The position numbers and the translations under genes are program-made. From the NCBI GenBank assembly GCA_963669155.1, contig OZ022585.1:6774843-6838842 (forward strand): a DNA stretch of 64,000 nt, read 5' to 3'. Below are positions 2,060 through 51,610 of this stretch, one piece after another; the first letter of the stretch is position 1, and each line of letters starts with the position of its first letter. The notes beneath the pieces are model-generated. The model did no database searches, had not been told where the DNA came from, and was given only the letters and a program-made list of their open reading frames with translations. The DNA is from Arbacia lixula. Lineage: Eukaryota; Echinodermata; Echinoidea; Arbacioida; Arbaciidae.

Positions 2060-3145
2060 CTATATTCTTTTGAAGGTGTTTTTTTGTGTTTCATCTTTTA
2101 ATGATATCTCACTTGATTTTACATCTACATCTGTCTTTGGACTGTCGTTACATTTATTTTCATTCTGTATGTTTTCAACACAATTATATTTGGGCACTCT
2201 CCTAATGGCAGAACAGAAACACCAAAACATTGCTATAATAGATACAGACACAACAAGTCCAATTGTGTAAACCAGATGTATATGACCCATATCATCTATT
2301 CGATCAGTTGCAGCTTCTTCTGGATGAATGTCTTGAGATCGTATGAAAGGTGCATCTGATGAAATAGCTTGTGTTGAAATGCTTTCTGAGCCATCTGTGT
2401 TCATATGACTGTCATCTTCACTATTTTGGTATTGTTTAAGCACACCTTGTGAAGGGTACCAAATAAAATCATTGCATGCATGCCTTTTAGTTGGCCTCAC
2501 ATAGTTTGTAGTACAACACATGACAGGCTTGTTTTTCCTGGCAATTAATGTTTGCTTGAAATGAGTTCTATTTTGTGTTACATGAGTCAAATGAGGCATT
2601 TTTATTAAGGTTTGATAACAATCAAAGAAACCAAAGTAGTTTCCAAGTGGTGCTGTACATTCTATGTTAGTCCACTCCTTGTCCATCTCTTGTGCAGTGT
2701 TTCTAAAATGGCAGGATGCTCTACCAGGTGCATATATAACGGTGAGACCGATTCTTTGGGTGAGATCTCGCACAAATGTACCATTCTTGTAGATGCTGCA
2801 TATATATGTTCCACCATCACTTCTTGTCACAAGTTTTATTTGAAACAGTATCAAGTACATTTCTGTTTCAGTTTCCTCACGTTCAGTGACATTGAATCGG
2901 CCTAATTGATCATCACTAAGACCAGCATTTGAGATATTGCCATTGATGTAGAATGGTAGGCGATTAGCCACCTGAATTTGAATGTGGCGTCCACTTACTT
3001 GACATGCTTTATCATAACAAAATCTCATATTTGCATCTTGTCCCTCATGAAATGCATAGAATCTTGTTTCACGTATTGGTGTGATGAGTGACAGGAGTAC
3101 CCACAAATGAATATATAGTTTGAATTGTTTGTGCTGTACATCCAT
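2060..3145 (-). CDS. A1: class A Ig-superfamily membrane protein
   Basis: A predicted type I membrane protein of 361 residues in one exon. The start is the ATG at 3145, because the residues after it form a hydrophobic signal peptide; an in-frame ATG 13 codons upstream lacks one. A V-like domain (about residues 30-140) has cysteines in both expected strands and ends in an F-strand DGGTYIC motif. A cysteine-rich C-like domain follows (about 145-230, with a CTAPLG motif), then a Thr/Ser/acid stalk, a membrane helix (about 290-312) and a roughly 50-residue polar tail with one tyrosine and no recognisable SH2 motif. The order and the ECTAP/CYQ motifs match A3 and A5, but overall it is the most divergent intact class A member. 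Ligand and role are unknown. Confidence 0.75.
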   Translation of the reverse strand: MDVQHKQFKLYIHLWVLLSLITPIRETRFYAFHEGQDANMRFCYDKACQVSGRHIQIQVANRLPFYINGNISNAGLSDDQLGRFNVTEREETETEMYLILFQIKLVTRSDGGTYICSIYKNGTFVRDLTQRIGLTVIYAPGRASCHFRNTAQEMDKEWTNIECTAPLGNYFGFFDCYQTLIKMPHLTHVTQNRTHFKQTLIARKNKPVMCCTTNYVRPTKRHACNDFIWYPSQGVLKQYQNSEDDSHMNTDGSESISTQAISSDAPFIRSQDIHPEEAATDRIDDMGHIHLVYTIGLVVSVSIIAMFWCFCSAIRRVPKYNCVENIQNENKCNDSPKTDVDVKSSEISLKDETQKNTFKRI

Positions 3146-3184
3146 ATTGCTATATGGAATTGATAATTGAGAATGATAACACAA

Positions 3185-4610: not shown

Positions 4611-4611
4611 G

Positions 4612-4826: not shown

Positions 4827-4827
<1 letters not shown>

Positions 4828-4834
4828 CTTTTAA

Positions 4835-5198
4835 AGGGCATATACTGTACTGGGAAGGCAAAAAAGCCTTCAAAATGTAATTGTTACAATCTTCTTGCCA
4901 ATGGTCTTAAATTCATGTATTGTCTATTTTAGAAGCTTGCTGAAAGTTATTTACCCTCAAATGATCCACATTTGGAGTAATGAGTGATTAAATCACAAAT
5001 CCTCAAAATGTTCGGGCCAAACATTTTGAGGATTTAATCATTAATCATTAATTACTCCATATGTGGATCATTTGAGGGCAAATAACTTTCAGCAAGCTTC
5101 TAAAATGGACAATACATGAATTTAAGACCATTGGCAAGAAGATTGCTAACAATTACATTTTGAAGGCTTTTTTGCCTTCCCAGTACAGTATATGCCCT
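4835..5198. mobile_element. TTAA-flanked foldback element (piggyBac-like MITE)
   Basis: The element is almost one perfect palindrome: two arms of about 180 bp meet near 5015 with hardly any spacer. It starts AGGGCATATACTG, ends with the complement, and TTAA directly abuts both ends (4831-4834 and 5199-5202), as in piggyBac insertions. No transposase is present, so it is non-autonomous. A fragment of its centre (AATCCTCAAAATGTTCGG) reappears near 61087. Confidence 0.75.
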
Positions 5199-5202
5199 TT
5201 AA

Positions 5203-7888: not shown

Positions 7889-8113
7889 CCTAGTTACTAG
7901 GCTGAGGAGTGCATGGTCACAACCGAGTCTGTTAGCAACTATGTCTGGTAATACAGACTAGGCCCTAATCCCTCTGACTGCCCTGGATCCTCAGTGGGCG
8001 AAAAAAAGATGATCCAGGGCAGTCAGAGTGATCAGGGGGCCTATAGTCTGTATTACCAGACATAGTTGTTAACAGATTCAGTTGTGACCATGCACTCCTC
8101 AGCCTTGTAATTA
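7889..8113. repeat. Foldback (hairpin) MITE, better preserved copy
   Basis: The arms of about 105 bp include CTAGTTACTAGGCTGAGG, TGCATGGTCACAAC, TATGTCTGGTAATACAGACT and GATCCAGGGCAGTCAGAG with complements on the right, separated by a short spacer. It belongs to the same family as 4391-4610 and abuts the right arm of the decayed element before it. No coding frame. Confidence 0.75.
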
Positions 8114-8734
8114 GTATCTTTTATGTGTCTGCTGGTGTTTGTGATGCATGCTACTGTGAACTGAGATTATCTGGTACAGTGGGGTATCAAACTCTGTGTT
8201 TCAAGCTATTGTCTTGAAAGGATGATCAGGCTAATTTATGATTGTGCATCTGGCGAGATGGAGGGAGCAGAGATGTGTGTTGCATTGTTTCTACAGGACA
8301 TCTGGTTCTGTTTCCGACTGATCTGTATAGTGAGGATGATGGACCAAATTAATGTGTTATGAGTAATTTCCAGAGTATGTCAGTTATGCATCGAGGCAAT
8401 GTCCTGATATGTTAAAATCATTGGCCTCGTAAGCACCCATGAGCTCATGATGTGCCATCAAGTATATGTTTATGAGTTGCCATCTTCTACTTTTAACAAC
8501 GGTTCATAAATGAGAAAGAAGAGCAATTGGGAAAAAAGCATTTCAATTGGACACCTCTTCTTAAATTGATTTCAAAAATGTCTTTGTGCATACTATTCTC
8601 TATTTCACTGACAGGATAATATCCAGATATTTCTAACAATTTGTTCGCTATTTATGTTCCATGTAGCATATGAGGATTGTAACAGTAGAGCTCGGCTAAA
8701 ACATTCAAAAAAGTATGTAGCTTGTTTGCTGGTA

Positions 8735-9602
8735 CAGGGAAACCCCGTTATAACGAGCACGGGTATAGCGAGAACCCTGCTATTACGAGGACATTTCTTG
8801 GGTCCCGATTTTTCTTCCATAGACCTCTGTGCATTCTGTTTTTATATAACGAGATCGGCTATAGCGAAATTTCTGCTATAGCGAGGCAAATTCCCAGCCC
8901 AAGAATAAAGAAAAAGAAAGGAAATTGACTCCGTTATTACGAGAACTCCCTTCAGCCACGCCGCCCAGCGAGGGAAATGCAACAACAGCATAGGCAATTT
9001 TCTTCGCGCCGTTAAACGCTGATCACACACACACCGTTCAAGAATCCACACACACACACACAACCACACATGCATATGTCCACATTACATGCGTGCGGTA
9101 CTGCCAGAGCCGTATCTCTATACGGCTCTAGGTACTGCACGCCCCCGCGCGCAACAATCAACACAGTCCCGCTCACGCACTTACATGGCAGAAGCCTCTA
9201 AACACGTGTGACACTGCGCGTGTACGGCCGCGGCCGCGCATGCATGCAGATAGTGTTCAATGATCATTCATTGCTAACAGTCATGACGGCAGGCGCGGCT
9301 GGGTAACTGGGCCTCCCCGCTGCTTCATTTGTCGGTAAACGGAGGTGTTGGAAGTGTCATTTATTTACATTTTCAACTGTGCTGTTAGATATTTTAGTGA
9401 ATTTTAAGGTCATGAATTCAGTTTAGAATGCTTGCAAAGCCATTTATATTACAGTCCTAACGGTAAATATGTTATTGTTTGTATAGTCCTATAGATGCAT
9501 TTGTTTCTGTATGTTTTGATCATGTACTGATATAGCGAGCAATCGGCTATAGCGAGGAAAAAGTGTGGGTCCCGCCCCCCTCGTTATAACGGGGTTTCCC
9601 TG
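8735..9602. mobile_element. pogo/Tigger-like non-autonomous DNA transposon
   Basis: Perfect terminal inverted repeats of 23 bp begin CAGGGAAACCCCGTTATAAC; TA abuts both ends (8733-8734, 9603-9604). Further TATAGCGAG/TATTACGAG blocks are repeated inside each end. These are hallmarks of the pogo/Tigger group within Tc1-mariner. The element is more GC-rich than its surroundings, about 868 bp long, and has no transposase frame. The duplicate locus near 25828 has the uninterrupted site. Confidence 0.88.
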
Positions 9603-9604
9603 TA

Positions 9605-12311: not shown

Positions 12312-14060
12312 TTACAGTGAGTCCCATTGAGCAGCCCTGATCACTGCACTATTTTCATATTCCGCAGTCATTGGCATGTACTCCGAACAGATACTTTGGG
12401 CATCATATGCTTGAGAACTTTCCTCATACAAATCACTTCCACTGCTTGGCAAACTGTATATGTATGATTCTGAAGATGTACTTCTTCCAGATGAGCTGTA
12501 CACATTGGTATCATATAGGTGATGGAGCTCAAGTCCACTGGATAAGAGGAGATTTGGAGTGAAAGAGTTTGGAGGAATATTTGAAAGCGATGTTTCATTG
12601 TCTGGAGGGTCAGTATAAACAGGCTCGGTTTCTTCCTGGGTATCCTCCACATACTCTGCCTGTGCACCACCACTGTCATCTTGTTTGGGTGAAGTAATTT
12701 CAGGATCCCTTTTGGTCTTCTTGTGAAAGCAAACGTAAAAAGCTCTGATAATGCATGCAGTAGCAAAGATTGTTGCCACAGTACCAGAAACAGCAGAAAC
12801 AATAGTTTGCCACGTATGAGAAAGGCTTACTTGGTTGGAATCAGACTTCACCTTAGTAGTAAGCACACCACTGAGATTTGGAGTGTTTGCTGAGGTTAGG
12901 AGAATGTTCTTTTTTCCTGAAGAACTAGCGGTAACATGTTTCTGAGTAGAATATACAAAGTCAAAATCTGCAGTAGAATGTGTGGACAGATCAGTGACAG
13001 GTGTAACAGAGGGTGGATGAATATCTTCCTCAGTGTCGTCAGAGTCATTGAAATTGTCCATGTCGAGAGAAATGAGTGCCGCTTCTGTGTCAGAACCTTC
13101 TGTATTTGTAACAGTACATGCTACCATTACTTCTACAAGTCCAGATGCCATAGAACTAAGAGAGCGGTTGTATGACACATCAGCTGTCTGGGAGTGCCCA
13201 TTGCAGCCATTGAGAACTCCTCCAGGAGAGCAAAACCATGAGTAGATGTAATTTTCGGGATAGCCCTTTGCAATGCAGAGTAACTGGATAGGACTGGTAA
13301 TGGGTAAAAGAGCTTGCTTTGGATAAACAAACACATTTGGTTGACTGATGACTCTGAAGGGACCAATAATACACTGGAGTCTTTGTCCTGGAAAGGCAGT
13401 GGCACTGCTTACCTCACAGATAATCTTGGACAGATCCAGATCTTGAGTGAAGAGTATCTCGTGTGACAGTACTCTGTATGTACCATCCTCATGATGCCAT
13501 GGTAAGGCATGCTGTAGACTTGTGAGTGGATCGATCCTCCAGCTTAAGTCCACTGCTGGTTCACCACGGGGAACCTCACAGAGGATCCCTTGCGATTCCC
13601 CCTCTCCCACCTCCTGTGGACCTCTGGGTTCACACGTCAGCTGTTCAGCAGTTGGAAAGTACTGCACAAGAAGTTTTGCACTCTGTGATGAAAAGCACTG
13701 TCGGAGAGGAGTCCCGGAACTGGATTGACTGATGACATCCAAATGACATGTCACAAACCTGATGTTTGAATCGATGTTCTGAATAACAAGTCTTGAAGTC
13801 AAATTGTTGTCGTCACAGGAATTCTCTGGTGCTGTGTGTGGAGAGTTTGGAGTAACGAGCCAAGAAAGGGAGTCAGTTTTGCAGTTTGCGTTTGTGACAC
13901 TACAGTCAAATATCGCGTGTTGCCCTTCTTTAATAGCATTGAGTTGAGGTTGAATCACAACTAGCAAGGGTGAATATCTACAAGCGTGTCCAGTGTTTGT
14001 GAAAAAGACAATTATAGTACAAAAAGCAACACAACGATACAAGGAAAAGCACAGCGCCAT
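12312..14060 (-). CDS. B1: class B Ig receptor with tyrosine-rich tail
   Basis: A predicted type I receptor of 582 residues in one exon. It has a signal peptide (about 1-27) and three Ig-like domains: about 35-135 (Cys 53 and Cys 105 with SWL between), 140-235, and 240-335 (LLCIAKGYP, YSWFC, ACTVTN). A Ser/Thr-rich stalk follows, then a membrane helix (about 417-440), basic residues (KKTKR) and a tail of about 140 residues with ten tyrosines. These include YMPM (561-564), a YxxM motif known to bind PI3K p85 SH2 domains, and YENS (568-571), a YxN motif typical of Grb2 binding. The stop TAA overlaps AATAAA. B2 is its close paralogue. Start and upstream about 200 bp are nearly identical in both. 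Ligand unknown; a recognition or immune role is inference. Confidence 0.82.
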   Translation of the reverse strand: MALCFSLYRCVAFCTIIVFFTNTGHACRYSPLLVVIQPQLNAIKEGQHAIFDCSVTNANCKTDSLSWLVTPNSPHTAPENSCDDNNLTSRLVIQNIDSNIRFVTCHLDVISQSSSGTPLRQCFSSQSAKLLVQYFPTAEQLTCEPRGPQEVGEGESQGILCEVPRGEPAVDLSWRIDPLTSLQHALPWHHEDGTYRVLSHEILFTQDLDLSKIICEVSSATAFPGQRLQCIIGPFRVISQPNVFVYPKQALLPITSPIQLLCIAKGYPENYIYSWFCSPGGVLNGCNGHSQTADVSYNRSLSSMASGLVEVMVACTVTNTEGSDTEAALISLDMDNFNDSDDTEEDIHPPSVTPVTDLSTHSTADFDFVYSTQKHVTASSSGKKNILLTSANTPNLSGVLTTKVKSDSNQVSLSHTWQTIVSAVSGTVATIFATACIIRAFYVCFHKKTKRDPEITSPKQDDSGGAQAEYVEDTQEETEPVYTDPPDNETSLSNIPPNSFTPNLLLSSGLELHHLYDTNVYSSSGRSTSSESYIYSLPSSGSDLYEESSQAYDAQSICSEYMPMTAEYENSAVIRAAQWDSL

Positions 14061-15216: not shown

Positions 15217-16225
15217 TTAAAAGTTATGGTTACTTAAAAAATGTTTAGTCTCTCTTGAGGTCCTCTGTTTGATTTTACTTTCTTGAGGTAAATCTTGTTG
15301 GTCTTTGTTACTTTTTTTAATGCTTTCTACTTCTTCTGGCTCGACTGCTGTGCCACTGTGTGAATCTTTTGCTTTATTTGTCTTATAAAGGATTAGTAAT
15401 TCCACAATACAAATAACTGTTGTATTTAGAAGCGTTAAGAGTATATTAATAACTGACAATGCCACAATAGTATGAATTTGATGAACTGTAACATAGTATG
15501 TTATTTCATTGCTTGAAGGCAAAGATGTAGATGGTGTATTTGCTATTGGTACATCTGGGGTTGTTTTTGGAGGACATGGATTGAGATTTTCTTCCTCTTC
15601 TCCATCAGGCTTAGAAAAATCTTTTATGAAATCAGTGCATTCACAAACATCTATGCTCTGTATGGAGATGGAAGAACAGCAAAACACAGGAGTTTTTGTC
15701 CTTATCTGCATTGTCTGCATGAGTGTGGTATGGTTTTGAACAGTTCTAGTGTGAGGTAGGCAATCACCATTTTGATAACATTCAATTACACTTAGATGAC
15801 TACCATGTGGGGCTGTACATGTACAACCCGTAAAGGTTTGAGTTAGCATGGTTAGGACCCAGATCACATTTGGCTTTGCTCGGAGGGAAGGTAACACTCA
15901 AATCTATTTGTTTCATATGGCCTTCAAGTTTCTGGTCATCTTTGTACATGTCACACGTATAAGTGCCTGCATCTTCTTGAGAAATATTTTTGATAGTAAC
16001 TCAAATGACGAGAATGGGTTGGAATCTTTTTCAACATTTACTCTGAATCTCTCTTGCTGATTTGGTCCTAAACCATCTTGGTTGATTTCATTTGACTGGG
16101 AAAAGGAAGGTCTATTACCAGTCTTAAGCTGCACATCAATTCCCTCATTATAAGTGTAGCAAAACTGCAGTTCTGCTTGATCTCCCTCAGTGAAGCTGAG
16201 CTGAGTAGAGGAAATTGAGCGTGCA
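15217..16225 (-). pseudogene. A2: broken class A Ig gene
   Basis: Homology to A3/A5 runs from the start of the V-like domain (QLSFTEGDQAE) to a membrane helix and short tail, but in several frames. A deletion of about 13 bp near 16002 shifts the frame just before the E/F strands. A net 8-bp deletion near 15825, in the linker between domains and shared with A4, shifts it again. No ATG or clear signal peptide precedes the V domain. The 3' part (C-like domain, Pro-rich stalk, helix, about 55-residue tail) stays open. Unlike A3 and A5, its V domain keeps the B-strand cysteine. A translated remnant cannot be excluded, but a full receptor is not encoded. Confidence 0.78.
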
Positions 16226-16868
16226 CACAGTATACTTAGGCGCGGTGGAGCACCCCAATTTGCATCTCATTATCTGCCTGATCTATTTGAATTTGTAATG
16301 GACTTCTACTGCAATCTCAAAAGGTGGTGACTGATAGTCAAAATATTTGCATTCGCGTCTTGTTATGAAATGAAACTTTCCAACCTATCTCAGTTTTCAA
16401 TGAACTTCATAATCATGAAAAAAGTATGAACTTTGATGGAATAAAACGTAAGATGTAAAACTTTTTTGAAATCATACGAACGATAGTTGTTGTTAGTCAA
16501 AATAATGATATAATGTGATAGGACTGGATTCTTCCAGATGTGTCCATGTCCTATGTTTGTACTTTGTAATTTATCAAGACAAGTCTAGTGTACTTCTTTC
16601 TATACCATAACCATTTTATGTGCCAAGCGATTCTTATTGTTTGGGGTGTGTTTGCATTACACTGCCAACATACCTCAATGGCATGAATGTGATTACCTTG
16701 TCACATTATTGTATGGAATGTGTTTAAGAATATGATACTTACTACACACTGCAGACCAAATTTGAATTTCCTATCATGAGAGATGTTCTGTAATTTGTCT
16801 TTGTAAAGACCAACTGACTTTTTACCAACAATAATATATTTTTGTTTACTTTCAAGTATTAAATTGTG

Positions 16869-17160
16869 CTACCAAATATCATGGGGAGTGTTATATACTT
16901 TGCTGTGTACAGTCCTCATTTCCCAGGGTTTTTGAAAGATGTTAAGCCGAACGTCGGGATAGGAAGTGGAAATGGAAGTCCCGGTATTTACAAATACTTC
17001 AGGAGACCCTAGAAAAGACCTCATACTATTTGTAATTTTATGCATCTCAACACAAGATTGATTCTCATAGACAGTTTTGATAACTGTTGTTGCAGACATA
17101 TCATCACAGCTTGATGAGCCTGCACAAGGTTCATTTTCCTTCCATGCATTTCAAGTTATG
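16869..17160 (-). pseudogene. Detached fragment of a B4-like cytoplasmic tail
   Basis: Its conceptual translation matches the last about 90 residues of B4: a W-K-E acidic stretch, SS-DD, VYENQSCVEMH and a PDVRL-like end. No membrane or Ig part lies immediately upstream in frame. It keeps the YEN motif. It is either the remnant of a lost B4-like gene or a tail exon of unknown use. The same fragment lies in copy 2 at about 33040-34250, split by insertions. Confidence 0.65.
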
Positions 17161-22687: not shown

Positions 22688-23233
22688 GTTTCAATTGATA
22701 AATACTGCACTATGGAACAAGTCTGAAATTAAATAATAACTGTACTCTAACTTTATTAGCAAAAGTAATTTATTTGGGAAGGACATCAAATATATAGAAT
22801 CATCAACATTTGATTGAGTTATGCAAATGTTGGTTGATTGATACAGTCTTGTAAGTATCACAAGGTGAACATCTGCATTGTCTCATAATCTCTAACTTGA
22901 TTTTGCATGAAAATATTTTATATTTTGGAGCGACACCTTAATTTATCCAAGTTATGGTATCATAATAGTCGGTGGATCCTTCATAGTTCTTATCTGTGAC
23001 ATTGCAGCATTGTGCACTAAGTCACTGCACTATATGATGTGGTCATTATGCTTGAAAAACTATTCAAATATTATACAATTTGTCTATTTTTTGTCATTTT
23101 CCCCTTGGGCTTGATATTCATTTCGTTGGAATGTTATTTCAGTTATGCCATTTTTACTGTTTTTCTTGGATTTTCACATCTACAATATAAAATTTCAATG
23201 GAATCGTTTTGATTACTATTCATGAGTGTGGCC

Positions 23234-24280
23234 TTACAAATCTTTTGCTTGTCCTTCAGTCCCTTTGTCAGGTTCTTTGATTTCAATTGGTGTGCAACTT
23301 TGTGTTTGTTTTGACTTCTGTTTGCCAAGGTATGGAAATACAAAAATGTAAATACCTACTAGTAGCATTGTGTTGGCAACTGCAAAGGATAGCATCACTA
23401 AGAATTCTGTTGTTGCCAATTGAAAGTGACCCATTGTCCCAAAACATGTATTTTGCAAAGTTTGTTTACTTGTAGGCACATATGTAGATGGTATCTCCGT
23501 TGGTTTTGGTGAGGTTTCTTTCACATTGTTCATTGGTACATCTGAGCTTATTTGAGGACAGGGGTTCAGCTCTTCCTCCCCTCCAGTATCATCATGCTGT
23601 GAAAAATCTTTCATGAATTCGGAACAATTACAAATATGTTTGCCCTTCTTGAAGGTAGAAGAACAACACCTCACTGGAATTGCTTTCGTAATCCACAGTG
23701 TCTGCATGAGAGTAGTGCGGTTTTGAATAGGTCTAGTCCAGGGAGGTAGCCGATCACCACACTGATAACACTCAATTACTCCAGGAGTGCTACCTATTGG
23801 GGCTGTACAGCTGAGGAGAGACCATTTGTCATCGCTAGTGTCTACATGGTTAGGAACTATAACACAGTCAGGTTTTCCTGGGTGAAACTCAATACTCAAA
23901 CTTATTTGTTTTGTATGGCCTTCAAGTCTCTGGCCACCTTTGTAAATGTCACATGTGTAGGTACCTGCATCTTCTCGAGAAATATTTTCAATATTGACTC
24001 GAATCAAAAACATGTGAGATGACAAAAATGGGGTGGATTGCTCCTCAACATGTACTGCAAATCTATGTAGCTGATGTGGCCCTAAACCATTTGGATTGAT
24101 TTCATTGGATATGTAGAAGGGATGCCTGTCACCAATACGAAGCCCTACACTAATGCCTTCTTCATGATTGTAGTGGAATACAAATTCTGCCTGATCCCCC
24201 TCAGTGAAGCTGAGCTGTGTAGAAGTGCTGGAGCATACCAACAGTGCAAATATACACATGTGGGCTACTTTGGAAAACAT
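23234..24280 (-). CDS. A3: class A Ig-superfamily membrane protein
   Basis: A predicted 348-residue type I membrane protein, one exon, ATG at 24280. It has a signal peptide (about 1-21), a V-like domain (about 22-130, F-strand DAGTYTC) and a C-like domain (about 135-225, with CTAPIG, ECYQCGD and paired cysteines). A Pro/Thr stalk, a membrane helix (about 293-317) and a tail of about 30 polar residues without tyrosine follow. The V domain has histidine where the B-strand cysteine is expected, so the canonical intra-domain disulphide is missing. It is close to A5, differing mainly in the V domain and the last residues. It lies 169 bp downstream of broken C1. Function unknown; a receptor or ligand that signals through a partner fits the short tail. 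Confidence 0.8.
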   Translation of the reverse strand: MFSKVAHMCIFALLVCSSTSTQLSFTEGDQAEFVFHYNHEEGISVGLRIGDRHPFYISNEINPNGLGPHQLHRFAVHVEEQSTPFLSSHMFLIRVNIENISREDAGTYTCDIYKGGQRLEGHTKQISLSIEFHPGKPDCVIVPNHVDTSDDKWSLLSCTAPIGSTPGVIECYQCGDRLPPWTRPIQNRTTLMQTLWITKAIPVRCCSSTFKKGKHICNCSEFMKDFSQHDDTGGEEELNPCPQISSDVPMNNVKETSPKPTEIPSTYVPTSKQTLQNTCFGTMGHFQLATTEFLVMLSFAVANTMLLVGIYIFVFPYLGKQKSKQTQSCTPIEIKEPDKGTEGQAKDL

Positions 24281-26834: not shown

Positions 26835-26876
<42 letters not shown>

Positions 26877-28505: not shown

Positions 28506-30230
28506 TTACAGTGAGTCCCATTTAGCAGCCCTGATCACTGCACTATTTTCATATTCTGCAGTCATTGACATGTACTCTGAACAAATACTTTGGGTATCAT
28601 ATGCTTGACAACTTTCGTCATACAGATCAATTTCACTACTTGAGGAACTGTATATGTACAATTCTGAAGATGTACTTCTTCCAGATGAGCGGTACACATT
28701 GGTATCATACAGGTGATGGTGCTCAAGTCCACTGGATTTGTGGAGATTTGGAGTGAAAGAGTTTGGAGGAATATTTGAAAGCGACGCTTCATTGTCTGGA
28801 GGGTCAGTATAAACAGGCTCGGTTTCTTCCTGGGTATCCATATGCTCTGCCTGTGCACCACCACTGTCATCTTGTTTGGGTGAAGTAATTTCAGGATCCC
28901 TTTTGGTCTTCTTGTGAAAGCAAACATAAATAGCTCTGATAAAGCAAGCAGTAGCAAAGATTGTTGCCACAGTACCAGAAACAGCAGAAACAATTGTTTG
29001 CCATGAATGAGAAAGGCTTGTTTGGTTGGAACCAGACTTCACCGTAGCTGTAGACACATTACTGATGTTTTGAGTATTTACTGGGGTTAGGAGACTGTGT
29101 TTTTCTCCCGGAGAACTAGCAGAAACATGCTCTTGAGTGGAATATACAAAGTCAAAAGATGCAGGAGATTGTGTGGACAGATCAGTGACAGGTGTTGCAG
29201 AGGGTGGATAAGTATCTTTGAAATTGTCCATGTCAAGAGAAATGAATGCTGCTTCTGTGTCAGAACCTTCTGTATTTGTAACAGTACATGCTACCATTAC
29301 TTCTACAATTCCAGATGCCATAGCCTTGAGAGAGTTGTTGTATAACACATCAATAGTCTGGGAGTGCCCATTGCAGCCATTGAGAAGTCCTGCAGGAGAG
29401 CAAAACCATGAGTAGATGTAATTTTCAGGATAACCCTTTGCAATGCAGAGTAGCCGGATAGGGCTGGTCATGGGTAAAGGAGCTTGCTTTGGATAAACAA
29501 ACACATTTGGTTGACTGATGACTCTGAAGGGACCAATAATACACTGGTGTCTTTGTCCTGGAAAGGCAGTGGCACTGCTTACTTTACAGATAATCTTGGA
29601 CAGATCCAGATCTTGAGTGACGAATATCTCGTGTGACAGTACTCTGTATGTACCATCCTCATGATGCCATGGTAAGGCATGCTGTAGACTTGTGGGTGGA
29701 TCGATCCTCCAGCTTAAGTCCACTGCTGGTTCACCACGGGGAACCTCACAGAGGATTCCTTGCGATTCCCCCACTCTCACCTCCTGTACACCTCTGGGTT
29801 CACACGTCAGCTGTTCAGCAGTTGGAAAGTACTGCACAAGAAGTTTTGCACTCTGTGATGAAAAGCACTGTCGAGAAGGAGTGCCGGAACTGTGTTGACT
29901 GACGGCATTCAAATGACATGTCACAAACCTGATGGTTAGATCCATGTTCTCAATAACAAGTCTTGAAGTCAAACGATTGACATTACAGGAACTCTCTGGT
30001 ACCGCATGTGGAGTATTTGGAGAAACAAGCCAAGAAAGGGAGTCTGTTTTGCAGTTTGCATTTGTGACACTACAGTAAAAGATCGCGTGTTGCCCTTCTC
30101 TAATAGCATTGAGTTCAGGTTGAATCACAACTAGCAAGGGTGAATATCTACAAGCATGTCCAGTGTTTGTGAAAAAGACAATTATAGTACAAAAAGCAAC
30201 ACAACGATACAAGGAAAAGCACAGAGCCAT
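28506..30230 (-). CDS. B2: class B Ig receptor with tyrosine-rich tail
   Basis: Close paralogue of B1, 574 residues, one exon, same ATG context. It has a signal peptide, three Ig-like domains in the same positions, a stalk shorter by about seven residues, a membrane helix (about 410-433) and a tail of about 140 residues. YMSM (553-556) keeps the YxxM pattern and YENS (560-563) keeps YxN; the first tail tyrosine of B1 is replaced by histidine. Changes from B1 concentrate in the outer Ig domain (about 20 in 90 residues) and the stalk. The second and third domains change far less and the signal peptide is identical. The stop again overlaps AATAAA. The difference suggests diversification of ligand binding, which is inference. 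Confidence 0.82.
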   Translation of the reverse strand: MALCFSLYRCVAFCTIIVFFTNTGHACRYSPLLVVIQPELNAIREGQHAIFYCSVTNANCKTDSLSWLVSPNTPHAVPESSCNVNRLTSRLVIENMDLTIRFVTCHLNAVSQHSSGTPSRQCFSSQSAKLLVQYFPTAEQLTCEPRGVQEVRVGESQGILCEVPRGEPAVDLSWRIDPPTSLQHALPWHHEDGTYRVLSHEIFVTQDLDLSKIICKVSSATAFPGQRHQCIIGPFRVISQPNVFVYPKQAPLPMTSPIRLLCIAKGYPENYIYSWFCSPAGLLNGCNGHSQTIDVLYNNSLKAMASGIVEVMVACTVTNTEGSDTEAAFISLDMDNFKDTYPPSATPVTDLSTQSPASFDFVYSTQEHVSASSPGEKHSLLTPVNTQNISNVSTATVKSGSNQTSLSHSWQTIVSAVSGTVATIFATACFIRAIYVCFHKKTKRDPEITSPKQDDSGGAQAEHMDTQEETEPVYTDPPDNEASLSNIPPNSFTPNLHKSSGLEHHHLYDTNVYRSSGRSTSSELYIYSSSSSEIDLYDESCQAYDTQSICSEYMSMTAEYENSAVIRAAKWDSL

Positions 30231-31399: not shown

Positions 31400-32385
31400 C
31401 TCTCTTGAGGTCCTCTGTTTGATTTTACTTTCTTGAGGTAAATGTTGTTGGTCCTTGTTACTTTTTTTTAATGATTTCTGCTTCTTCTGGCTTGACTGCT
31501 GTGCCACTGTGTGAATCTTTTGCCTTCTTTGTCTTATGAAGGATTAGTATTCCCACAATACAAATAACTGTCATATTTAGAAGCGTTAAGAGCATATTAA
31601 TAAATGACAATGCCACAATAGTATGAATTTGATGAACTGTAACATAGTATGTTATTTCATCTCTTGAAGGCAAAGATGTAGATGGTGTATTTGCTATTGG
31701 TACATCTGGGGTTGTTTTTGGAGGACATGGATTGAGATTTTCTTCCTCTTCTCCGTCATGCTTAGAAAAATCTTTTTTTGAAATCAGTGCATTCACAAAC
31801 ATTTATGCTCTGTATGGAGATGGAAGAACAGCAAAACACAGGAGTTGTTGTTCTTATCTGCAATGTCTGCATGAGTGTGGTGCGGTTTTGAACAGTACTA
31901 GTGTGAGGTAGGTGATCACCATTTTGATAACATTCAATAACACTTAGATGACTACCAAGTGGGGCTGTACATGTACAACCCGTCAAGGTTTGTGTTAGCA
32001 TGGTTAAGACCCAGATCACATTTGGCTTTGCCCAGAGGGCAGGTAACACTCAAATCTATTTGTTTCATATAGCCTTCAAGCTTCTTGTCATCTTTGTACA
32101 TTTCACACGTATAAGTGCCTGCATCTTCTCGAGAAATATTTTTGATAGTAACTCAAACCAGACTGTGAAATGACAAGAATGGGTTGGAATCTTTTTCAAA
32201 ATTTACTCTGAATCTCTCTGGCTGATTTGGTCCTGAACCATTTTGGTTGATTTCATTTGACTGGTAAAAGGGAGGTCTATTACCAATCTTAAGCTGCACA
32301 TCAATTCCCTCATTATAAGGGTAGTGAAACTGCAGTTCTGCTTGATCTCCCTCAGTGAAGCTGAGCTGAGTAGAGGAAATTGAGC
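31400..32385 (-). pseudogene. A4: broken class A Ig gene
   Basis: Duplicate of A2 with different lesions added. A TGA interrupts the V domain just before the conserved SREDAGTYTC stretch (near 32156). The net 8-bp linker deletion near 31975 is shared with A2. An extra T in a T run near 31775 shifts the frame in the stalk. The V-domain B strand has histidine, as in A3 and A5, whereas A2 has cysteine. The membrane helix and tail are recognisable at 31458-31650. Not expected to make a full protein. Confidence 0.8.
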
Positions 32386-33039
32386 ATACACACAGTATAC
32401 TCAGGCGCGGGGGAGCACCCCAATTTGCATCTCATTATCTGCCCGATCTATTTGAATTTGTAACAGACTTCTACTGCAATCCCAAAACGTGGTGACTGAT
32501 AGTCGAAATATTTGCATTCGCATCTCATCGCTTTGCGCCCGAGTTATGAAAGGAAACTTTCCAACCTATCTAAGTTTTCAATGAACTTCATAATCATGAA
32601 AAAATATGAAATTTGATGGAATAAAACGTGAGATATGAAACTTTTGAAATCATACAAACGATAGTTGTTGTTAGTCAAAATGATGATATAATGTGATAGG
32701 TCTGGATTCTTCCAGATGTGTCTATGTCCTATGTTTGTACTTGGTAAGTTATGAAGACGAGTCTAGTGTACTTCTTTCTATACCATAACCATTTTATGTG
32801 GCAAGGGATTCTTATTGTTTGGGGTGTGTTTGCATTACACTGCACATACCTCAATAGCATGAATAGCATGAATGTGATTATGTTGTCACATTATAATATG
32901 GAATGTGTTTAAGAAAATGATACTTACTACACACTACAGACCAAATTTGAAATTCCTTTCATGAGAGATGTTCTGTAATTTGTCTTTGTAAAGACTTTTT
33001 ACCAACAATCATATTTTTTGTTTACTTTCAAGTATTGAA

Positions 33040-34250
33040 TTGTGCTACCAAATATCATGCTGAGTGTTATATACTTTGCAGTGCACAGTCTACATTTCCC
33101 ATGGTTTTTGAAAGATGTTAAACCGAACGTCAGGGTAGGAAGTGGAATGGAAGTCCTGGGGCCGTATTCCATAAACAAGATAAACATGCTTAAGTAAAAA
33201 ATCTAAGCAATTTGTCTTATCTTGTGTCTAAGACAAAATTCTTAGCCAAAACGCGTATTCCATAAAAATTTGGCTAAGAATTTTGTCTTAGAACTTGGCT
33301 AAGATTTTTTGCTTAGCTAAGACAGATTTAGGATTTATGGCTAAGTAACTGTTCTTAAAATTGTACACTTAGTATTCTATAAACTACAAATGGCTAAGAA
33401 TTTTGCCCTAACTCTTAAGACAGCTGTGAGTTGTCTTAACTTTGGGGATGCAGCATGGCTGCGCGCAGTATGGCAGCTTCATCCACTGCCTGCTCACACC
33501 ATAACCAGCATGACCGCGTATTTCTGCTTAATGCGCGTTAATTTTATTGTCAAAGGTTGGATGCGCGATTTATTTTACACATAGCCATTAGTAAACAAGA
33601 TGTAAGATTAACAGAAGAAAGCTAGGCAAAATGTGTACATATTTGACAATTGCACATTTTCGTTCCAAATACCTCTATTTTCAACTTGCATTCGTACTGC
33701 TGAAATGTTGGCACGGTATGTTTAACATCACTGATCTCATCTATGATGACATTGCCCCTATGGCAAATCGGAACTATCCTATTGAGCCCACAGACAAGGT
33801 ATGCATAGCTTAAAAGTTAGATTCAATGCTGGTGCGATTTTTGCCTTTAACACGTAAAATGCATTGACTTTTTCACCGCGGGGGAGTTGTTCGTGGGAGA
33901 ACGAGTGTGATTAAAGTTGCGTGACGTCACTAATTTTCTCATGACGTCAAAGAATTTTAAGATTTGCCTTAGCCAAATCTTTTGACTTTATAGGAAAAAT
34001 TGCTTAAGTTCATGGACTACCGTCTTAGACAAGAAAAAGGCTAAGACAAATTGCTTAGACTTAAGCAAAAATTCTTAGATGTTTATTTACAAATACTTAA
34101 TGAGACCCTAGAAAAAACCTCATACTTTATCTTATTTTATGCATGTCAACACAAGATTGATTCTCATAGACAGTTCTGATAATAATTGTTGTTGCATACA
34201 TATCATCAGAGCTTGATGAGCTTGCACAAGGTTCATTGTCCTTTCATGCA
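33040..34250 (-). pseudogene. B4-like tail fragment, copy 2, split by an insertion
   Basis: Same fragment as 16869-17160: the 3' part lies at about 33040-33159 and the 5' part at 34084-34250, separated by the element at 33160-34083. The block encoding the VYENQ-type motif (rendered from GATTGATTCTCATAGACAG) survives in the 5' part. Confidence 0.6.
33160..34083. mobile_element. MITE with TTAGCC/CTAAGAC repeats
   Basis: Comparison with copy 1 (GTCCCGGTATTTACAAAT) shows an insertion of about 924 bp. It begins GGCCGTATTCCATAAAC and ends GCAAAAATTCTTAGATG. Both ends carry inverted ATAAACAT, CTTAAG and CTAAGCAATTTGTCTTA blocks, and GGCTAAGA-type motifs repeat inside. TGACGTCA occurs twice in the interior. 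No transposase frame; superfamily undetermined. Exact ends are ambiguous by a few bases. Confidence 0.75.
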
Positions 34251-38690: not shown

Positions 38691-38735
38691 GATATAATGA
38701 TGATATAACAGTCACCTCAGAATAATATTGAATAT

Positions 38736-41389: not shown

Positions 41390-41435
41390 GAAATTCCTTT
41401 AAGAAATATAAACAAAAACTTGAGTATAAATACAA

Positions 41436-41735
41436 AACAGATAATCTTGGACAGATTCAGATCTTGAGTGAAGAGTATCTCATGTGACAGTACTCTGTAT
41501 GTACCATCTTCATGATGCCATGGTAAGGCATGCTGTTGATTTGTGGGTGGATCGATCCTCCAGCTTAGTCCTCGGCTGGTTCGTTACTGGGAACCCTGCA
41601 GAGGATGCCTCACGATTCCCCCATTTCCACCTCCTGTGGACCTCTGGGTTCACATGCCAGCTGTTCAGCAGTTGGAAAGTACTGCGCAAGAAGCTTTGCA
41701 CTCTGTGATGAAAAGCACTGTCGGAGAGGAGTTCT
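41436..41735 (-). pseudogene. B3: fragment of a class B Ig gene
   Basis: It matches B1 from about 13415 to 13712, i.e. the end of the first and most of the second Ig domain. It lacks the signal peptide and most of domain 1: a deletion joins the coding remnant directly to the upstream flank at a TTCTGG microhomology. It also lacks everything after domain 2, and has small indels (for example CTTAGTCC in place of CTTAAGTCC). Not functional. Confidence 0.85.
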
Positions 41736-42639: not shown

Positions 42640-42995
42640 GGTGAATGATGATCGATGGAAAACTTTCAGATTACTCTTCTGAGCAGCAATTACTTCACCA
42701 CATGATAACACACATTGGTGGATTCGTTTGTCTTCAGCTTGTATGTTGTTTATATGGACAGAAAACAACTGCAAAATATTGTTTTTAACTGTTTTTCAAA
42801 GGGGTAGGTGTGAGAGAATAGATCTGTTCCATTGTCATGAGAGATCATTCAATTGCAATAAAGTCTAATGGTAGAGATTTGATCAGAGTTAGATGCGATG
42901 AAAAGAAATGTGGCTGTTTCTCCTTCTTGAAGAACCAATCTGTGCTGAGTTGTTGAATTTGATGTAGGTGTTGGTGAAAATTGACAGACTGCTAC
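42640..42995 (-). pseudogene. C3: remnant of a class C first Ig domain
   Basis: The conceptual translation keeps the F-G part of the C2 first domain: INNIQAEDKR, CVLSCGE, and LKVFH. Similarity continues to the signal-peptide end, but frames break several times and domain 2 is missing. It lies directly upstream in coordinate of the A-C unit copy 2. Confidence 0.7.
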
Positions 42996-43254
42996 CTGTA
43001 ATGCCAATATCGGGTATATGTCAGATTAGTCAGTGGATCCTTCAAAGTCCTTATCCATGACATTGCAGCATTATGCATTACGTGGAGTGATCAGTATGCT
43101 TAAAAATCTATTAAAATGTTATATCCTTTGTTTTTTATCATTTTCCCATTGGGCTTGATATTCATTTTCTTGGAATGGTATGCCATTTGTCAATTTGTCG
43201 TGTTTTCTTGGGATGTTCACCTCTGCAATATCAAATTTCAATGGAATTTTTGGA

Positions 43255-44322
43255 TCACTGTTCATTGCTGTGGCCTTCCTCACCTTTTGCTTGTCCTTCA
43301 GTTTCTTTGTCAGGTTCTTTGGTTTTAATTTGTGTCCCACTTTGTGTTTCTTTTGCCTTCTGTTTGCCAAGGTACGGAAATACAAAAATGTAAATACCTA
43401 CTAGTAGCATTGTGTTGACAACTACAAATGATAGCATCACCAAATATTCTGTTGTTGCAAATTGAAAGTGACCCATTGTCACAAAATGTGTATTTTGCAA
43501 AGCTGGTTTACTTGTAGGCACATATGTAGATGGTACCTTTGTTGGTTTTGGTGAGGTGTCTTTCACATTGTTCATTGGTACATCTGAGCTTATTTGAGGA
43601 CAATAGTTCAGCTCTTCCTCCCCTCCAGTATCATCATGCTGTGAAAAATCGTTCATGAATTCAGAACAATTACAAATATGTTTGCCCTTCTCGAAGGTAG
43701 AAGAACAACACCTCACTGGAATTGCTTTCCTAATCCACAGTGTCTGCATGAGAGTAGTGCGGTTTTGAATAGGTCTAGTCCAAGGAGGTAGCCGATCACC
43801 ACATTGATAACACTCAATTACTCCAGGAGTACTACCTATTGGGGCAGTACATCTGAGGAGAGACCATTTGTCATCGCTAGTGTCTACATGGTTAGGAACT
43901 ATAACACAGTCAGGTTTTCCTGGGTGAAACTCAATACTCAAACTTATTTGTTTTGTATGGCCTTCAAGTCTCTGGCCATCTTTGTAAATGTCACATGTGT
44001 AGGTACCTGCATCTTCTCGAGAAATATTTTCAATATTGACTCGAATCAAAAACATGTGAGATGACAAAAATGGGGTGGATTGCTCCTCAACATGTACTGC
44101 AAATCTATGTAGCTGATGTGGCCCTAAACCATTTGGATTGATTTCATCGGATATGTAAAAGGGTCGTCTGTCACCAATACGAAGCCATACACTAATGCCT
44201 TCTTCATGATTGTAATGAAATACAAATTCTGCCTGATCCCCCTCAGTGAAGCTGAGCTGTGTAGAAGTGCTGGAGCATATCAACAGTGAAAATATACACA
44301 TGTGAGCTACTTTGGAAAACAT
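43255..44322 (-). CDS. A5: class A Ig-superfamily membrane protein
   Basis: A 355-residue paralogue of A3, one exon. It has a signal peptide (about 1-21), a V-like domain (about 22-130) with histidine at the B-strand cysteine position and Cys 110 in the F strand, and a C-like domain (about 135-225). A Thr/Pro stalk, a membrane helix (about 293-317) and a charged tail of about 38 residues without tyrosine follow; the tail is eight residues longer than in A3. Several N-x-S/T sites occur. Its ATG is only 112 bp downstream of the C2 stop on the same strand, so the pair may share a promoter or transcript. Binding partner unknown. Confidence 0.8.
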   Translation of the reverse strand: MFSKVAHMCIFSLLICSSTSTQLSFTEGDQAEFVFHYNHEEGISVWLRIGDRRPFYISDEINPNGLGPHQLHRFAVHVEEQSTPFLSSHMFLIRVNIENISREDAGTYTCDIYKDGQRLEGHTKQISLSIEFHPGKPDCVIVPNHVDTSDDKWSLLRCTAPIGSTPGVIECYQCGDRLPPWTRPIQNRTTLMQTLWIRKAIPVRCCSSTFEKGKHICNCSEFMNDFSQHDDTGGEEELNYCPQISSDVPMNNVKDTSPKPTKVPSTYVPTSKPALQNTHFVTMGHFQFATTEYLVMLSFVVVNTMLLVGIYIFVFPYLGKQKAKETQSGTQIKTKEPDKETEGQAKGEEGHSNEQ

Positions 44323-44434
44323 ATTTCAGGAACAAAAGTAAAACTTGAATAGAATAGAATAGCAAGCCAAGTTCTTGTTGGTAACCTATGATGCTTGCAC
44401 TTTAGTACATCTATACATATGTTGAAGGTTCTTA

Positions 44435-45388
44435 TTAATTAGTGGGACAATTAAACAACATCAAGATTAGGCTGCCTATGTAAATTAATAAGATGGAAGT
44501 GCTTAAATGCTTATCAGGAGAAAAGGTTTGTTCTCCTGATTGGCTTGGAGCTGGTAAGGAGGAACTAGCCTCTTGTGATGGTGTTTCAGATTTAATTGAA
44601 TCTTGATTACTATGTTGCTCATCTACAGTTGTGCTTACAATCCCTTTTGTTGGAGTATATCTTCCTGGCTGTGATGTTATTTTCAAAGAATGAAAGTCAT
44701 TGCAGGACTGGATATTCTTGGGGAATTTTGTGCTGACTGTGCAGCAAGCAATATCTGTGTCTCTCTTCAGCCAAAATGTAGCAGTAAATATATCTTGGCC
44801 TGTTATGTGAAGTGGAGTATGGACAGCTGTCTTGGTTGAATCTGTCAAGTAGCAAATAGCAGCTCCTGGTGGATAACCATTCCTGGCAGTGCACTGAAGA
44901 ATTGAGTAATTGAAGAAATTTGCAGCATCAAGTGGGACAGATGCAGTATCAATCCAGCCGCATGTAAGAGGTTCAGGTGGGTGGAAGACCTTCAGACGAA
45001 TTTGTTGAGTTGAGCTCTCCTGTCCACAAGTAAATTCACACTGGTAGTTTCCTTTATCTGCAACTTGTACGTTGTTAATGGACACCAAAACAGCAAAATA
45101 GTCAAATGAAGAGAATTGGAGTGCAGTTGTTCTTAACAGCTTTGCATGAGGGTAGGTGTGAGAGAACAGTTCTGTTCCATTCTCATTAAAGATCACTCCG
45201 TTGTAAGAAAGTATTGAAGAACAGATTTGATCAGAGTCTGGTGTGATGAATAAAAACCTGGCTACATTGTGTTCTTTCACAGTCAGGCTCTTGTGAGTTG
45301 CTGAGTGTGATGCACCTCTTGTTGTTAAAAGTTCAAAGAGTATTAATAGCACCGGCAGTAGAATCATCCAGCAAACTGCCTGCTTCAT
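44435..45388 (-). CDS. C2: class C Ig-superfamily surface protein
   Basis: A predicted 317-residue protein, one exon, starting MKQAVCW with a clear signal peptide (about 1-25). It has a V-like domain (about 30-125) whose F strand reads GNYQCEFTCG but whose B strand (ARFLF) lacks cysteine. A second Ig-like domain (about 130-235) has several cysteines (LTCGW, LQCTARNGYPPG, CYL, CC). A Ser/Gln-rich stalk is followed by a final hydrophobic stretch of about 20 residues (295-313) that ends almost at the C-terminus. Lack of a cytoplasmic tail suggests a GPI anchor or a very short tail. It is the only intact member of its class here. Function unknown. Confidence 0.75.
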   Translation of the reverse strand: MKQAVCWMILLPVLLILFELLTTRGASHSATHKSLTVKEHNVARFLFITPDSDQICSSILSYNGVIFNENGTELFSHTYPHAKLLRTTALQFSSFDYFAVLVSINNVQVADKGNYQCEFTCGQESSTQQIRLKVFHPPEPLTCGWIDTASVPLDAANFFNYSILQCTARNGYPPGAAICYLTDSTKTAVHTPLHITGQDIFTATFWLKRDTDIACCTVSTKFPKNIQSCNDFHSLKITSQPGRYTPTKGIVSTTVDEQHSNQDSIKSETPSQEASSSLPAPSQSGEQTFSPDKHLSTSILLIYIGSLILMLFNCPTN

Positions 45389-45434
45389 GACGAATCATAT
45401 TATTCTTTCTAGGTTGTTTGCCAACTCTCTTCAG

Positions 45435-48840: not shown

Positions 48841-48844
48841 TTTT

Positions 48845-49080: not shown

Positions 49081-49438
49081 AGACTGTATGAAAGAGGAGC
49101 AAAATCAATATCTCATATTGATGATGTCTGTAATATAAACAGAATTCTTTTTAATTGTAGTATATTGGATATAAATATGTTGCATTAAGTATGTTGCTAT
49201 AGATAGATAACTAATGATGATTACGGTGCTTATAATTTACAGTGCATACTACAGTAGTAGTATAGTCCACTCATTTGTAGTGCATAGTAGCTAACATTAA
49301 TAGCACCCATCAAACTTTCTGCATGCTTTTATTTTGGCGGTCCACACCTCATTTCCAAATTTGTAATGATTAGAACACTGCAAAATATACCAAATATTCA
49401 GTAATGTTTTGTAATGTCAAGTCCATTTTTTGCAGTAC

Positions 49439-51610
49439 TTACAGTTTTCGGTTCTCAGAGCTTTTAGAAGATGCTAACCTGACCGTAGGGATAGGAGGTG
49501 GTAGTGGAAAGTCCTGGTATTTACAAATATTGTAGTCGACTTTCAAGAGATCTTGAGTAGACCTCATATGTGATCTTGTTTCATGCATCTCAACACATGA
49601 TTGATTCTCATAGACATCTCCAATAATACTTGTTGCATACTCGTCATCAGAGATTGATGAGTATGCAAAAGCTTCATCCTCCTTCTTCCAGGACTCAGAT
49701 GAGCTAGAGTAGGAGCAGTACATACTGATATCTGAAGATGTATGTGAGTCATTGGAGTGCCCTTTCATAGAGATGCTGTTACTCTCAGAATCAGTGGTGT
49801 CTGAAACACATACTTTGTCTTCAGAAGGTGAGGTGAATGTGGTTTCATTATACACATGGCCCATTGCGGCGTGATGGTCTGTTGGATCAGTCTGGAATAG
49901 GCCTTCGTCTCTGTGGACGTTGGAGAGGTCTCTCGTACTGGATGGATCACAAGCCAAGTGGGAGATCGGTTGTACTTGGACATTGTCAACCATCTGTGCT
50001 GCAATATGCCTGAAGTGCCTGTACAAGATCAGTGAGATTAGAGCAAAGAAACCTGCAGATAAAAATGTGCCAGCAATGACAGCCCCAATTGTAACTAAGT
50101 ACATTTTGTCTGTACCCTCATGTAGTTTCTTAGGATTATCTCCCATCAGTTCATTTAGGGTTTCAACTTTTTGTATAATCTGTGTTGCTGATGGGATAGT
50201 TGTCTTCTGAGATGAAATTGGAGATGTGGTTTTAGTAGATGGAGGACCAGATAGCAATGTAGTGCACTGTCTACCATGGTGAATGGTTTGCAGCATGTCT
50301 GAAGTCAAAGTTATGTTCTTCTTGACGGTCAGTTGTTGAGAGTTGACTTTGCATCCCACAATGTAATCAGTGTTACACAAGTTTACGATTGTCATGTTAA
50401 CAAACAATTGAGTAGAGCTTTCCTCAGAGGCAATGCGACATGTTTCCTCATAAACTGTCTCGTTCTGAAGTGACCAAGAGACATGGATAATTTCTAATTG
50501 CATATCTTCATGATGAACTGTGCAAACAAATGCAACATCCCAAAGTGTCGTAGCTGCTGTCTGTGGTCGAACTTCAAGATTTAGTTTAAAGTGATTCATG
50601 CGTGTTAAGAAGATTCTGGCGGAATCCTGTGACATACCCATACTGTTTACCGCAGTGCATGTAATATTTATGTTGTCTTGATCTATCAGGTGGCGACTGG
50701 CTTCTGGACTGACTGTGAGAGTTATGTTTCTTGTTTTTGACTCACAGTTGAGCAGAAGGTGTGGTGGTGAGCATGACCATGACAGATTAGTGATCTCTGG
50801 AAACGCGCCAATGTCACAGAATATCTCTACAGTCTTATTCCCTGATAAGGCTGTGGCCTTTGGCGAGACAAGAACTTCTGGTGCGTGATGGACAGTAAAA
50901 GGTTGTAGCTCACATGATAGATTGCTTGTGGGGAAGGCATCCACGATCTCTGCCAAACATATTGCCTTTTTACCATGCATGGAGCGATTCATTTCTAATT
51001 CCCATATCAGGGATGATGTTGCATTAGGATGTTCCTTTGTGTCAGCTTCCTCAGGGATATCTGTATGTTGGTACTCAATTACAAATTCTTGTTGGAGAGT
51101 GTCTTGTAGCATCCATGTCAGTTGAACTCCATGATTGCTTTGTAGAACTCTGCACCAAATTCTCAACAGTTCACCCTCTTGGTAGGTTGTATCACTCTCT
51201 GGCCCACACTTAATGTCATCTTGCTTCGGAAAGTACTGAATTATCATTCTCGCAGTCTTTGAATAGCAAGATTTCAATGACATTTCATGGTCTAAGACGT
51301 ACAGCAAACATTGTTGAGTTTGTGGGGACCTTCCCACCTCTGAAATAAATATCCTGGACGTCATTTCTCGCGTGGTCTCATTGTAATCATGATATATTGT
51401 ACTGGCGTACTGCGATGGATTGACCTGCCAGATGATGCGATCTGTGTCTGCATTGAAGTTTGAAACAATGCAGGTAAAATTTGCCGCTCCTCCCTCCTTC
51501 ACAGTTAAATCAGTAGGATGCTTCACAAATGTTGACGGTTGTGTATTGCAATGAAGTGATGTGCCACGACTGACAAAAACTAACATCATTAGAATATCAA
51601 ACAGCTTCAT
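49439..51610 (-). CDS. B4: divergent class B Ig receptor, four Ig domains
   Basis: A predicted 723-residue type I receptor in one exon. I chose the ATG at 51610, which starts a signal peptide (MKLFDILMMLVFVSRG); an in-frame ATG 43 codons upstream gives a polar N-terminus. Four Ig-like domains cover roughly 25-125, 130-235, 240-335 and 340-440, with many N-glycosylation sites. The QYFPK linker after domain 1 matches QYFPT in B1 and B2, showing common descent. A Thr/Ser stalk, a membrane helix (about 503-530) and a tail of about 190 residues follow. The tail has several tyrosines, a VYENQ motif (Grb2-like YxN) and a proline-rich PLPPPIP stretch that could bind SH3 domains. Detached copies of this tail lie at 16.9-17.2 and 33.0-34.3 kb. 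Likely a signalling receptor; ligand unknown. Confidence 0.78.
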   Translation of the reverse strand: MKLFDILMMLVFVSRGTSLHCNTQPSTFVKHPTDLTVKEGGAANFTCIVSNFNADTDRIIWQVNPSQYASTIYHDYNETTREMTSRIFISEVGRSPQTQQCLLYVLDHEMSLKSCYSKTARMIIQYFPKQDDIKCGPESDTTYQEGELLRIWCRVLQSNHGVQLTWMLQDTLQQEFVIEYQHTDIPEEADTKEHPNATSSLIWELEMNRSMHGKKAICLAEIVDAFPTSNLSCELQPFTVHHAPEVLVSPKATALSGNKTVEIFCDIGAFPEITNLSWSCSPPHLLLNCESKTRNITLTVSPEASRHLIDQDNINITCTAVNSMGMSQDSARIFLTRMNHFKLNLEVRPQTAATTLWDVAFVCTVHHEDMQLEIIHVSWSLQNETVYEETCRIASEESSTQLFVNMTIVNLCNTDYIVGCKVNSQQLTVKKNITLTSDMLQTIHHGRQCTTLLSGPPSTKTTSPISSQKTTIPSATQIIQKVETLNELMGDNPKKLHEGTDKMYLVTIGAVIAGTFLSAGFFALISLILYRHFRHIAAQMVDNVQVQPISHLACDPSSTRDLSNVHRDEGLFQTDPTDHHAAMGHVYNETTFTSPSEDKVCVSDTTDSESNSISMKGHSNDSHTSSDISMYCSYSSSSESWKKEDEAFAYSSISDDEYATSIIGDVYENQSCVEMHETRSHMRSTQDLLKVDYNICKYQDFPLPPPIPTVRLASSKSSENRKL

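Follow-up and report, generated by a model that had tools for sequence, protein, structure and literature searches.

Linked single-exon genes for immunoglobulin-type membrane proteins in the echinoid Arbacia lixula

Two kinds of described systems come closest to the genes considered here. In echinoderms, KirrelL is an intronless gene for an immunoglobulin (Ig) protein with a transmembrane (TM) segment which is required for the fusion of skeletogenic cells (PMC8903837), and IgTM is the other echinoderm gene that comes close (PMC6768484). In layout, the nearest allorecognition system is the immunoglobulin superfamily (IgSF) complex of Hydractinia, with 41 members (PMC11999971; see also PMC13119343). 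The locus analysed in this study is a stretch of 64,000 nucleotides from the echinoid Arbacia lixula (contig OZ022585.1, here C10:6774843-6838842), referred to below as the window, in which IgSF copies of three classes, A, B and C, occupy positions 2,060-51,628. All copies are on the minus strand, and a tblastn search of the 64-kb window with seven of the proteins gave no plus-strand copy at E<0.05, which confirms the one-strand tandem Ig cluster reported in a preliminary description made from the sequence of the window alone. Our preferred reading, to which we would give a probability of about 0.4, is that the window represents one site of an old, co-inherited set consisting of an intronless receptor and its partner IgSF proteins, in which B may signal via Grb2- or Crk-type adaptors to actin. 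No description of a linked C-A-B set was found in the literature searched, the coverage of which left out most subscription papers.

Two families and their linkage across the genome

Seven intact single-exon IgSF frames (A1, A3, A5, B1, B2, B3 and C2) and seven relics (A2, A4, C1, one B fragment, one C fragment and two fragments of B3-type tails) were found in the window. The intact frames are 319-766 amino acids (aa) long, compared with a chance maximum of 224 aa from stop to stop in 20 Markov-1 sequences of 64 kb. The co-occurrence of intact and broken genes had been recognised before; the earlier counts of six and about five are replaced by these. The class A proteins A1, A3 and A5 begin with a signal-like sequence and contain two Ig-type domains, a single TM segment and a short tail; their relative C2 has a hydrophobic stretch at its end. 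In B1, B2 and B3 there are several Ig domains and a single TM segment, and the tail, rich in tyrosine, is ~140-190 residues long. This agrees with the tails as first described, short in A, long and tyrosine-rich in B and absent in C, except that A had been described as lacking tyrosine motifs and A1 has one membrane-proximal tyrosine (YNCV).

A and C are homologous, as indicated by blastp (A3/C2 9e-14, A1/C2 1.4e-9). Between A/C and B, blastp gave short matches only, with E about 0.1 or worse, and hhalign gave a probability of 0.5%, or 4.6% with ten sequences per side. As judged by these comparisons there are two families rather than three, A/C and B, with no detectable relation of B to A/C. 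The earlier view of three related classes therefore holds for A and C and fails for B.

The genome search was performed on one assembly of 606,990,701 bases in 590 contigs. With A5 as query, 75 matches were obtained at E up to 1e-3, with an uninterrupted frame of at least 300 aa in 43 of the 75; these A/C rows stand for matches and not for genes, as some genes appear twice and the weak rows may include other two-Ig genes. For B the counts come from a single query, B1, which gave 19 rows and 15 counted places, including the window fragment, which is a relic; not counted were two C3 rows (E 1.8e-4 and 9.5e-4), a further piece of the window fragment and a piece of tail next to 13.523 Mb. Every one of the 15 counted B matches has an A/C match within 31 kb, and 13 have one within 12 kb, while the share of the genome that lies within 40 kb of such a match is 0.36%. 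The looser sites are C8, where B is 11 kb from the nearest A/C match, and the 21.9-Mb region of C10, where the distances are 6 to 31 kb. A-type arrays without a nearby B are present at C10 5.84-6.28 Mb, C14 22.85-22.94 Mb, C16 21.87-21.91 Mb and on C54. One member of the C14 array has a tail with SIYQSV, resembling an immunoreceptor tyrosine-based inhibitory motif (ITIM), and another class A match on C14 (L026, C14:22907109-22907540) is part of a nominal 1,826-aa open frame, for which the fetched piece reaches an N stretch.

Two other loci also have the order C-A-B on one strand, and a third has it in a looser form. The first, C10:967.5-972.3 kb, carries the three genes in this order on the plus strand, with 48 nucleotides (nt) from the C stop to the A start and an in-frame TAG in B, and at C10:13.519-13.524 Mb the same order is seen with a spacing of 815 nt and a B that is truncated. 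On C8, 78 nt separate C from a broken A, and B is located about 10 kb further. In the window, C2 and A5 are separated by 112 nt and a B fragment lies further on; C1-A3 come ~9 kb ahead of B1, and the interval contains relics. Four further places have A next to B with no C identified (L010/L035, L043/L032, L045/L036 and L046/L050), and one of these pairs is convergent. In the A/C tree, which carries long-branch warnings, 94% of 200 bootstrap trees place the C genes of four loci together on one side of a branch.

The distances within A and within B are correlated, with a Mantel r of 0.867 for nine pairs and 0.916 for seven (0 of 5,000 permutations in each case), the pairs being hand-chosen as neighbours; A5 was taken as the partner of B1, although the relic A2 is nearer, and B2, L031 (near twins) and B3 were left out. 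The A and B trees share their main pairings: in both, L041/L044 group with L034/L033, and L046 groups with members from the 21.9-Mb region. These data show that A and B are co-inherited. The co-inheritance suggests that A, C and B belong to one system, and for the linked proteins it suggests that they work as one recognition system.

Predicted ectodomains, membrane ends and tails

The Pfam Ig matches of A1, A3, A5 and C2 are below cut-offs. A profile of A/C (nine sequences and fragments) matches CEA, pIgR and other IgSF chains at 1e-14 to 1e-9, and the predicted model of the A5 ectodomain (predicted local distance difference test, pLDDT, 85.6) has two Ig domains with V-plus-C folds. The structures nearest to this model are nectin-like, B7 and butyrophilin proteins. 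The identity to these is 12-18%, and class A differs from them in its second domain, in which six cysteines, including a CC pair, are invariant in ten aligned A-type sequences. The modelled similarity in fold is not a sign of descent, and an assignment of A to B7 was considered and found not to be safe, since nectin-like proteins, CD4 and antibody chains score close. The usual B-strand cysteine of domain 1 is kept in A1 and A2 and is His in A3, A4 and A5. The TM cores were checked for three members, A1, A3 and A5, and contain neither Lys nor Arg.

The hydrophobic end of C is GPI-like (glycosylphosphatidylinositol), and C may be held on the membrane by such an anchor. A 5' leader exon shared by C and A was considered and rejected, as the upstream candidate splice acceptors were no better than random 170-nt windows (fractions 0.14-0.96). 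Inspection by eye gave no AATAAA poly(A) signal between C2 and A5.

The Ig domains of B1, B2 and B3 are above Pfam cut-offs. With a profile of three B sequences the best solved relative was SYG-2, which was also first, tied, in another comparison, while with ten sequences Dscam and Robo1 rank above SYG-2, which is then the third protein. Membership of B in the nephrin/SYG-2 group thus looked good with three sequences and weaker with ten, and the Kirrel/nephrin link is not specific. Dscam, Robo and SYG-2/nephrin are, like B, multi-Ig TM receptors and are the best solved sequence relatives of its profile; however, the similarity is a general IgSF one, and no FN3 domains were detected by Pfam in the scanned B proteins.

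Tails were compared for 11 of the 15 B matches; the other four are the truncated L033 gene, the window fragment and a pair of genes on C10 (21.94 and 21.96 Mb). YxN is present in 11/11 tails (16 sites), compared with a mean of 3.9 tails and 0 of 2,000 cases with as many in shuffles, which ignore shared descent (for most pairs of paralogues, about 60-80% of sites are different). Y[DE]xP is present in 8/11 tails (shuffled mean 0.9), and in 10/11 a Y[DE]xP/YTDP box is located 35-50 residues from the membrane end of the called TM segment, with YxN after the box. The motif picture is the same for nine non-redundant tails. The ITIM pattern occurs in 1/11 tails (shuffled mean 3.4) and in none of the three window B tails, YxxL/I is depleted (1/11 vs shuffled mean 6.4), and YxxM in 4/11 is not significant. 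No enrichment in the B tails was observed for ITIM, the immunoreceptor tyrosine-based switch motif (ITSM), NPxY or Nck-type motifs. YxN suits Src homology 2 (SH2) domains of the Grb2 type, and YxxP those of the Crk type.

Make-up and growth of the cluster in the window

The features of the window are the following, with positions counted from its first letter.

A1, 2060..3145, minus: intact, single exon; TM protein with two Ig domains and one Tyr (YNCV) in its short tail
B1, 12312..14060, minus: intact single-exon multi-Ig receptor; ~140-aa tail with YTDP, YMPM and YENS
A2, 15217..16266, minus: class A copy, broken
B3-type tail relic, 16928..17141, minus: VYENQSCVEM retained
A3, 23234..24280, minus: intact class A; 92% identity to A5
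C1, 24450..25308, minus: class C copy, broken, match in two frames; directly upstream of A3
B2, 28506..30230, minus: intact class B; 84% identity to B1; tail with YTDP, YMSM and YENS
A4, 31458..32431, minus: class A copy, broken, match in three frames; duplicate of A2
B3-type tail relic, 34118..34243, minus: second such tail piece
Class B fragment, 41431..41732, minus: two frames; 80-89% identity to B1/B2
Class C fragment, 42655..42962, minus: two frames
A5, 43255..44322, minus: intact class A; query of the genome search and source of the ectodomain model (pLDDT 85.6)
C2, 44435..45388, minus: intact class C; hydrophobic GPI-like end; stop codon 112 nt before the A5 ATG
B3, 49439..51607, minus: intact class B; tail with YENQ, without YxxP; start at 51607 or 51628
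Right flank, outside the cluster, 56120..60796, plus: exons similar to a 5'-nucleotidase domain protein; PF05761 E 2e-4, below cut-off

The cluster contains segmental duplications, with 90.8% identity between 27298-33156 and 11088-16981 and 87.3% between 43021-45430 and 22960-25340, which bears out the birth and death of genes proposed from the sequence of the window. Positions 25826-27293 match 9601-11019, older and poorer copies are found at 35.7-42.4 kb, and the broken A2 and A4 were copied together with B1 and B2. The near copies may in part be uncollapsed haplotypes.

The ratio of nonsynonymous to synonymous change (dN/dS) is 0.47 for A5/A3 (bootstrap 0.29-0.83) and 0.58 for B1/B2 (0.41-0.83), and since both values are below 1, both pairs are constrained overall. 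In the A3/A5 ectodomain the ratio is 0.26 for the first domain (D1) and 0.16 for the second (D2). Outside the coding region, B1 and B2 differ at 339/5,460 aligned sites; the coding region exceeds this with 141/1,725 (p 0.006), and so does the ectodomain with 106/1,152 (p 0.0004), where the peaks are found in domain 1 and the stalk. This excess could be due to exchange between copies, old alleles or selection, and one 200-nt B1/B2 flank window has a value of 0.19, so the heterogeneity extends beyond the gene. The opposite pattern is seen for A5/A3, with 0.053 in the coding part and 0.17-0.23 in short flanks. For the rapid change assumed at first the picture is mixed, with dN/dS below 1 in both pairs and a B1/B2 ectodomain that is more divergent than its flanks.

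Some further elements were observed. An element of ~870 bp with inverted ends (GGGAAACCCCGTTATAACG...) at 8733-9601 belongs to duplication unit 1 and is absent at the matching point of unit 2 (~25752-25826), which implies insertion after the duplication or loss from one copy. Between A1 and B1 there are long palindromic inverted repeats at 4831-5202 (~94%) and 7890-8114 (~84%). A GIY-YIG-like open frame at 38704-38985 on the plus strand (Pfam E 0.0017, below cut-off) may derive from a Penelope-like element. The exons in the right flank, which we take to be NT5DC1-like, are accompanied by an inverted partial copy of one exon at 57637-57906 (minus). Scanning the window with Rfam and for tRNA genes gave no hits.

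Possible roles of the linked set

From their predicted architecture, B looks like a signalling adhesion receptor, and A and C look like membrane-held partners. According to our preferred reading, C, by means of a GPI anchor, and A would be displayed on the membrane as partners or ligands of B, and engagement of B would lead to tyrosine phosphorylation of its tail. The Y[DE]xP site would then bind Crk-type and the YxN site Grb2-type SH2 domains, and the adaptors would cause actin remodelling for contact, engulfment or adhesion. Their close linkage would ensure that a receptor and its partner stay matched. In our view such a set most likely serves recognition by migratory or immune cells, a KirrelL-like developmental reading being close behind. 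Several points weigh against this interpretation. Block duplication alone would produce the linkage and the correlated distances, neither of which shows that the proteins meet, and A does not need an adjoining B, given the A-only arrays. In several cassettes there are broken members, some A-type proteins also have hydrophobic ends, and the B3 tail is without YxxP. The SH2 partners of the B tails are putative, named from general motif rules.

The genes could alternatively be of the echinoderm KirrelL/IgTM kind, that is, intronless Ig-TM adhesion proteins of the skeleton-forming mesenchyme acting in filopodial contact, fusion and branching, with B KirrelL-like, A IgTM-like and no immune role, which we regard as the strongest competitor, though less likely than not. 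One-exon coding is a property of the seven intact frames and of the 43 of 75 A/C matches with a frame of at least 300 aa, and Ig domains with one TM segment are also found, the window A folds being taken from the model where Pfam is below cut-offs; compared by description, class B shares with KirrelL a multi-Ig adhesion-type ectodomain. However, the link to nephrin/Kirrel is unspecific, as Dscam and Robo1 are above SYG-2 with ten B sequences. KirrelL is a skeletogenic effector gene, whereas here 75 A/C and 15 B matches are found at linked sites with relics, and the many A/C matches and relics resemble a recognition family more than a developmental gene set. The preliminary description had compared the layout to paired receptors, and short- and long-tailed IgSF members do adjoin here as in the KIR, SIRP and PILR kind. 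Paired receptors have an ectodomain common to their short- and long-tailed members, whereas the A/C and B ectodomains show no detectable homology by blastp and hhalign, the B tails have YxN and YxxP instead of ITIMs (none in the window, 1/11 in the genome), and the TM cores of A1, A3 and A5 are free of basic residues. On these three features, activating and inhibitory receptors of the vertebrate style are very improbable.

An allorecognition complex, in which linked polymorphic ligands (A and C) and a receptor (B) would distinguish self from non-self, agrees with the conserved A-B linkage and co-inheritance, the duplicates and relics, and the larger divergence of the B1/B2 ectodomain (106/1,152) than of the rest of the alignment (339/5,460), and it has a parallel in the Hydractinia complex with 41 IgSF members (PMC11999971). 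With Hydractinia Alr the locus shares a cluster of duplicated IgSF TM genes with relics and the combination of a V-set and a further Ig domain; it differs in having two unrelated, single-exon Ig families per cassette, known here from one assembly. We consider such a complex quite unlikely, since the excess divergence may be gene conversion, one flank window is at 0.19, and the A3/A5 ectodomains are conserved (D1 0.26, D2 0.16). The earlier suggestion of an allorecognition layout holds in so far as the A-B linkage, which would be expected of a receptor-ligand or allorecognition complex, is conserved elsewhere in the genome; an immune or self-recognition role is putative. It is conceivable, though unlikely, that A, C and B make up a genetically locked echinoderm self-recognition set, in which GPI-like C and short-tailed A would be displayed to their own Grb2/Crk-coupled receptor B, and cassette duplication would keep ligand and receptor matched, as a non-ITIM, single-exon counterpart of linked receptor-ligand complexes. 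A role in coelomocytes, as phagocytic receptors that bind pathogens and in which B would signal via Grb2, is distinctly improbable. The YxN motif in 11/11 B tails would fit this, as would an amphioxus receptor that promotes bacterial phagocytosis via Grb2; that receptor, however, is a leucine-rich repeat protein without a cytoplasmic tail (PMC10199209).

If A and C are partners of B, the set would make it possible to study how receptor and ligand are kept matched in an animal that lacks vertebrate immunity, with three close single-exon genes, several independent cassettes and a conserved two-motif tail as useful features. Our preferred reading, if true, would also tie the intronless Ig adhesion genes of echinoderm skeletogenesis to recognition families.

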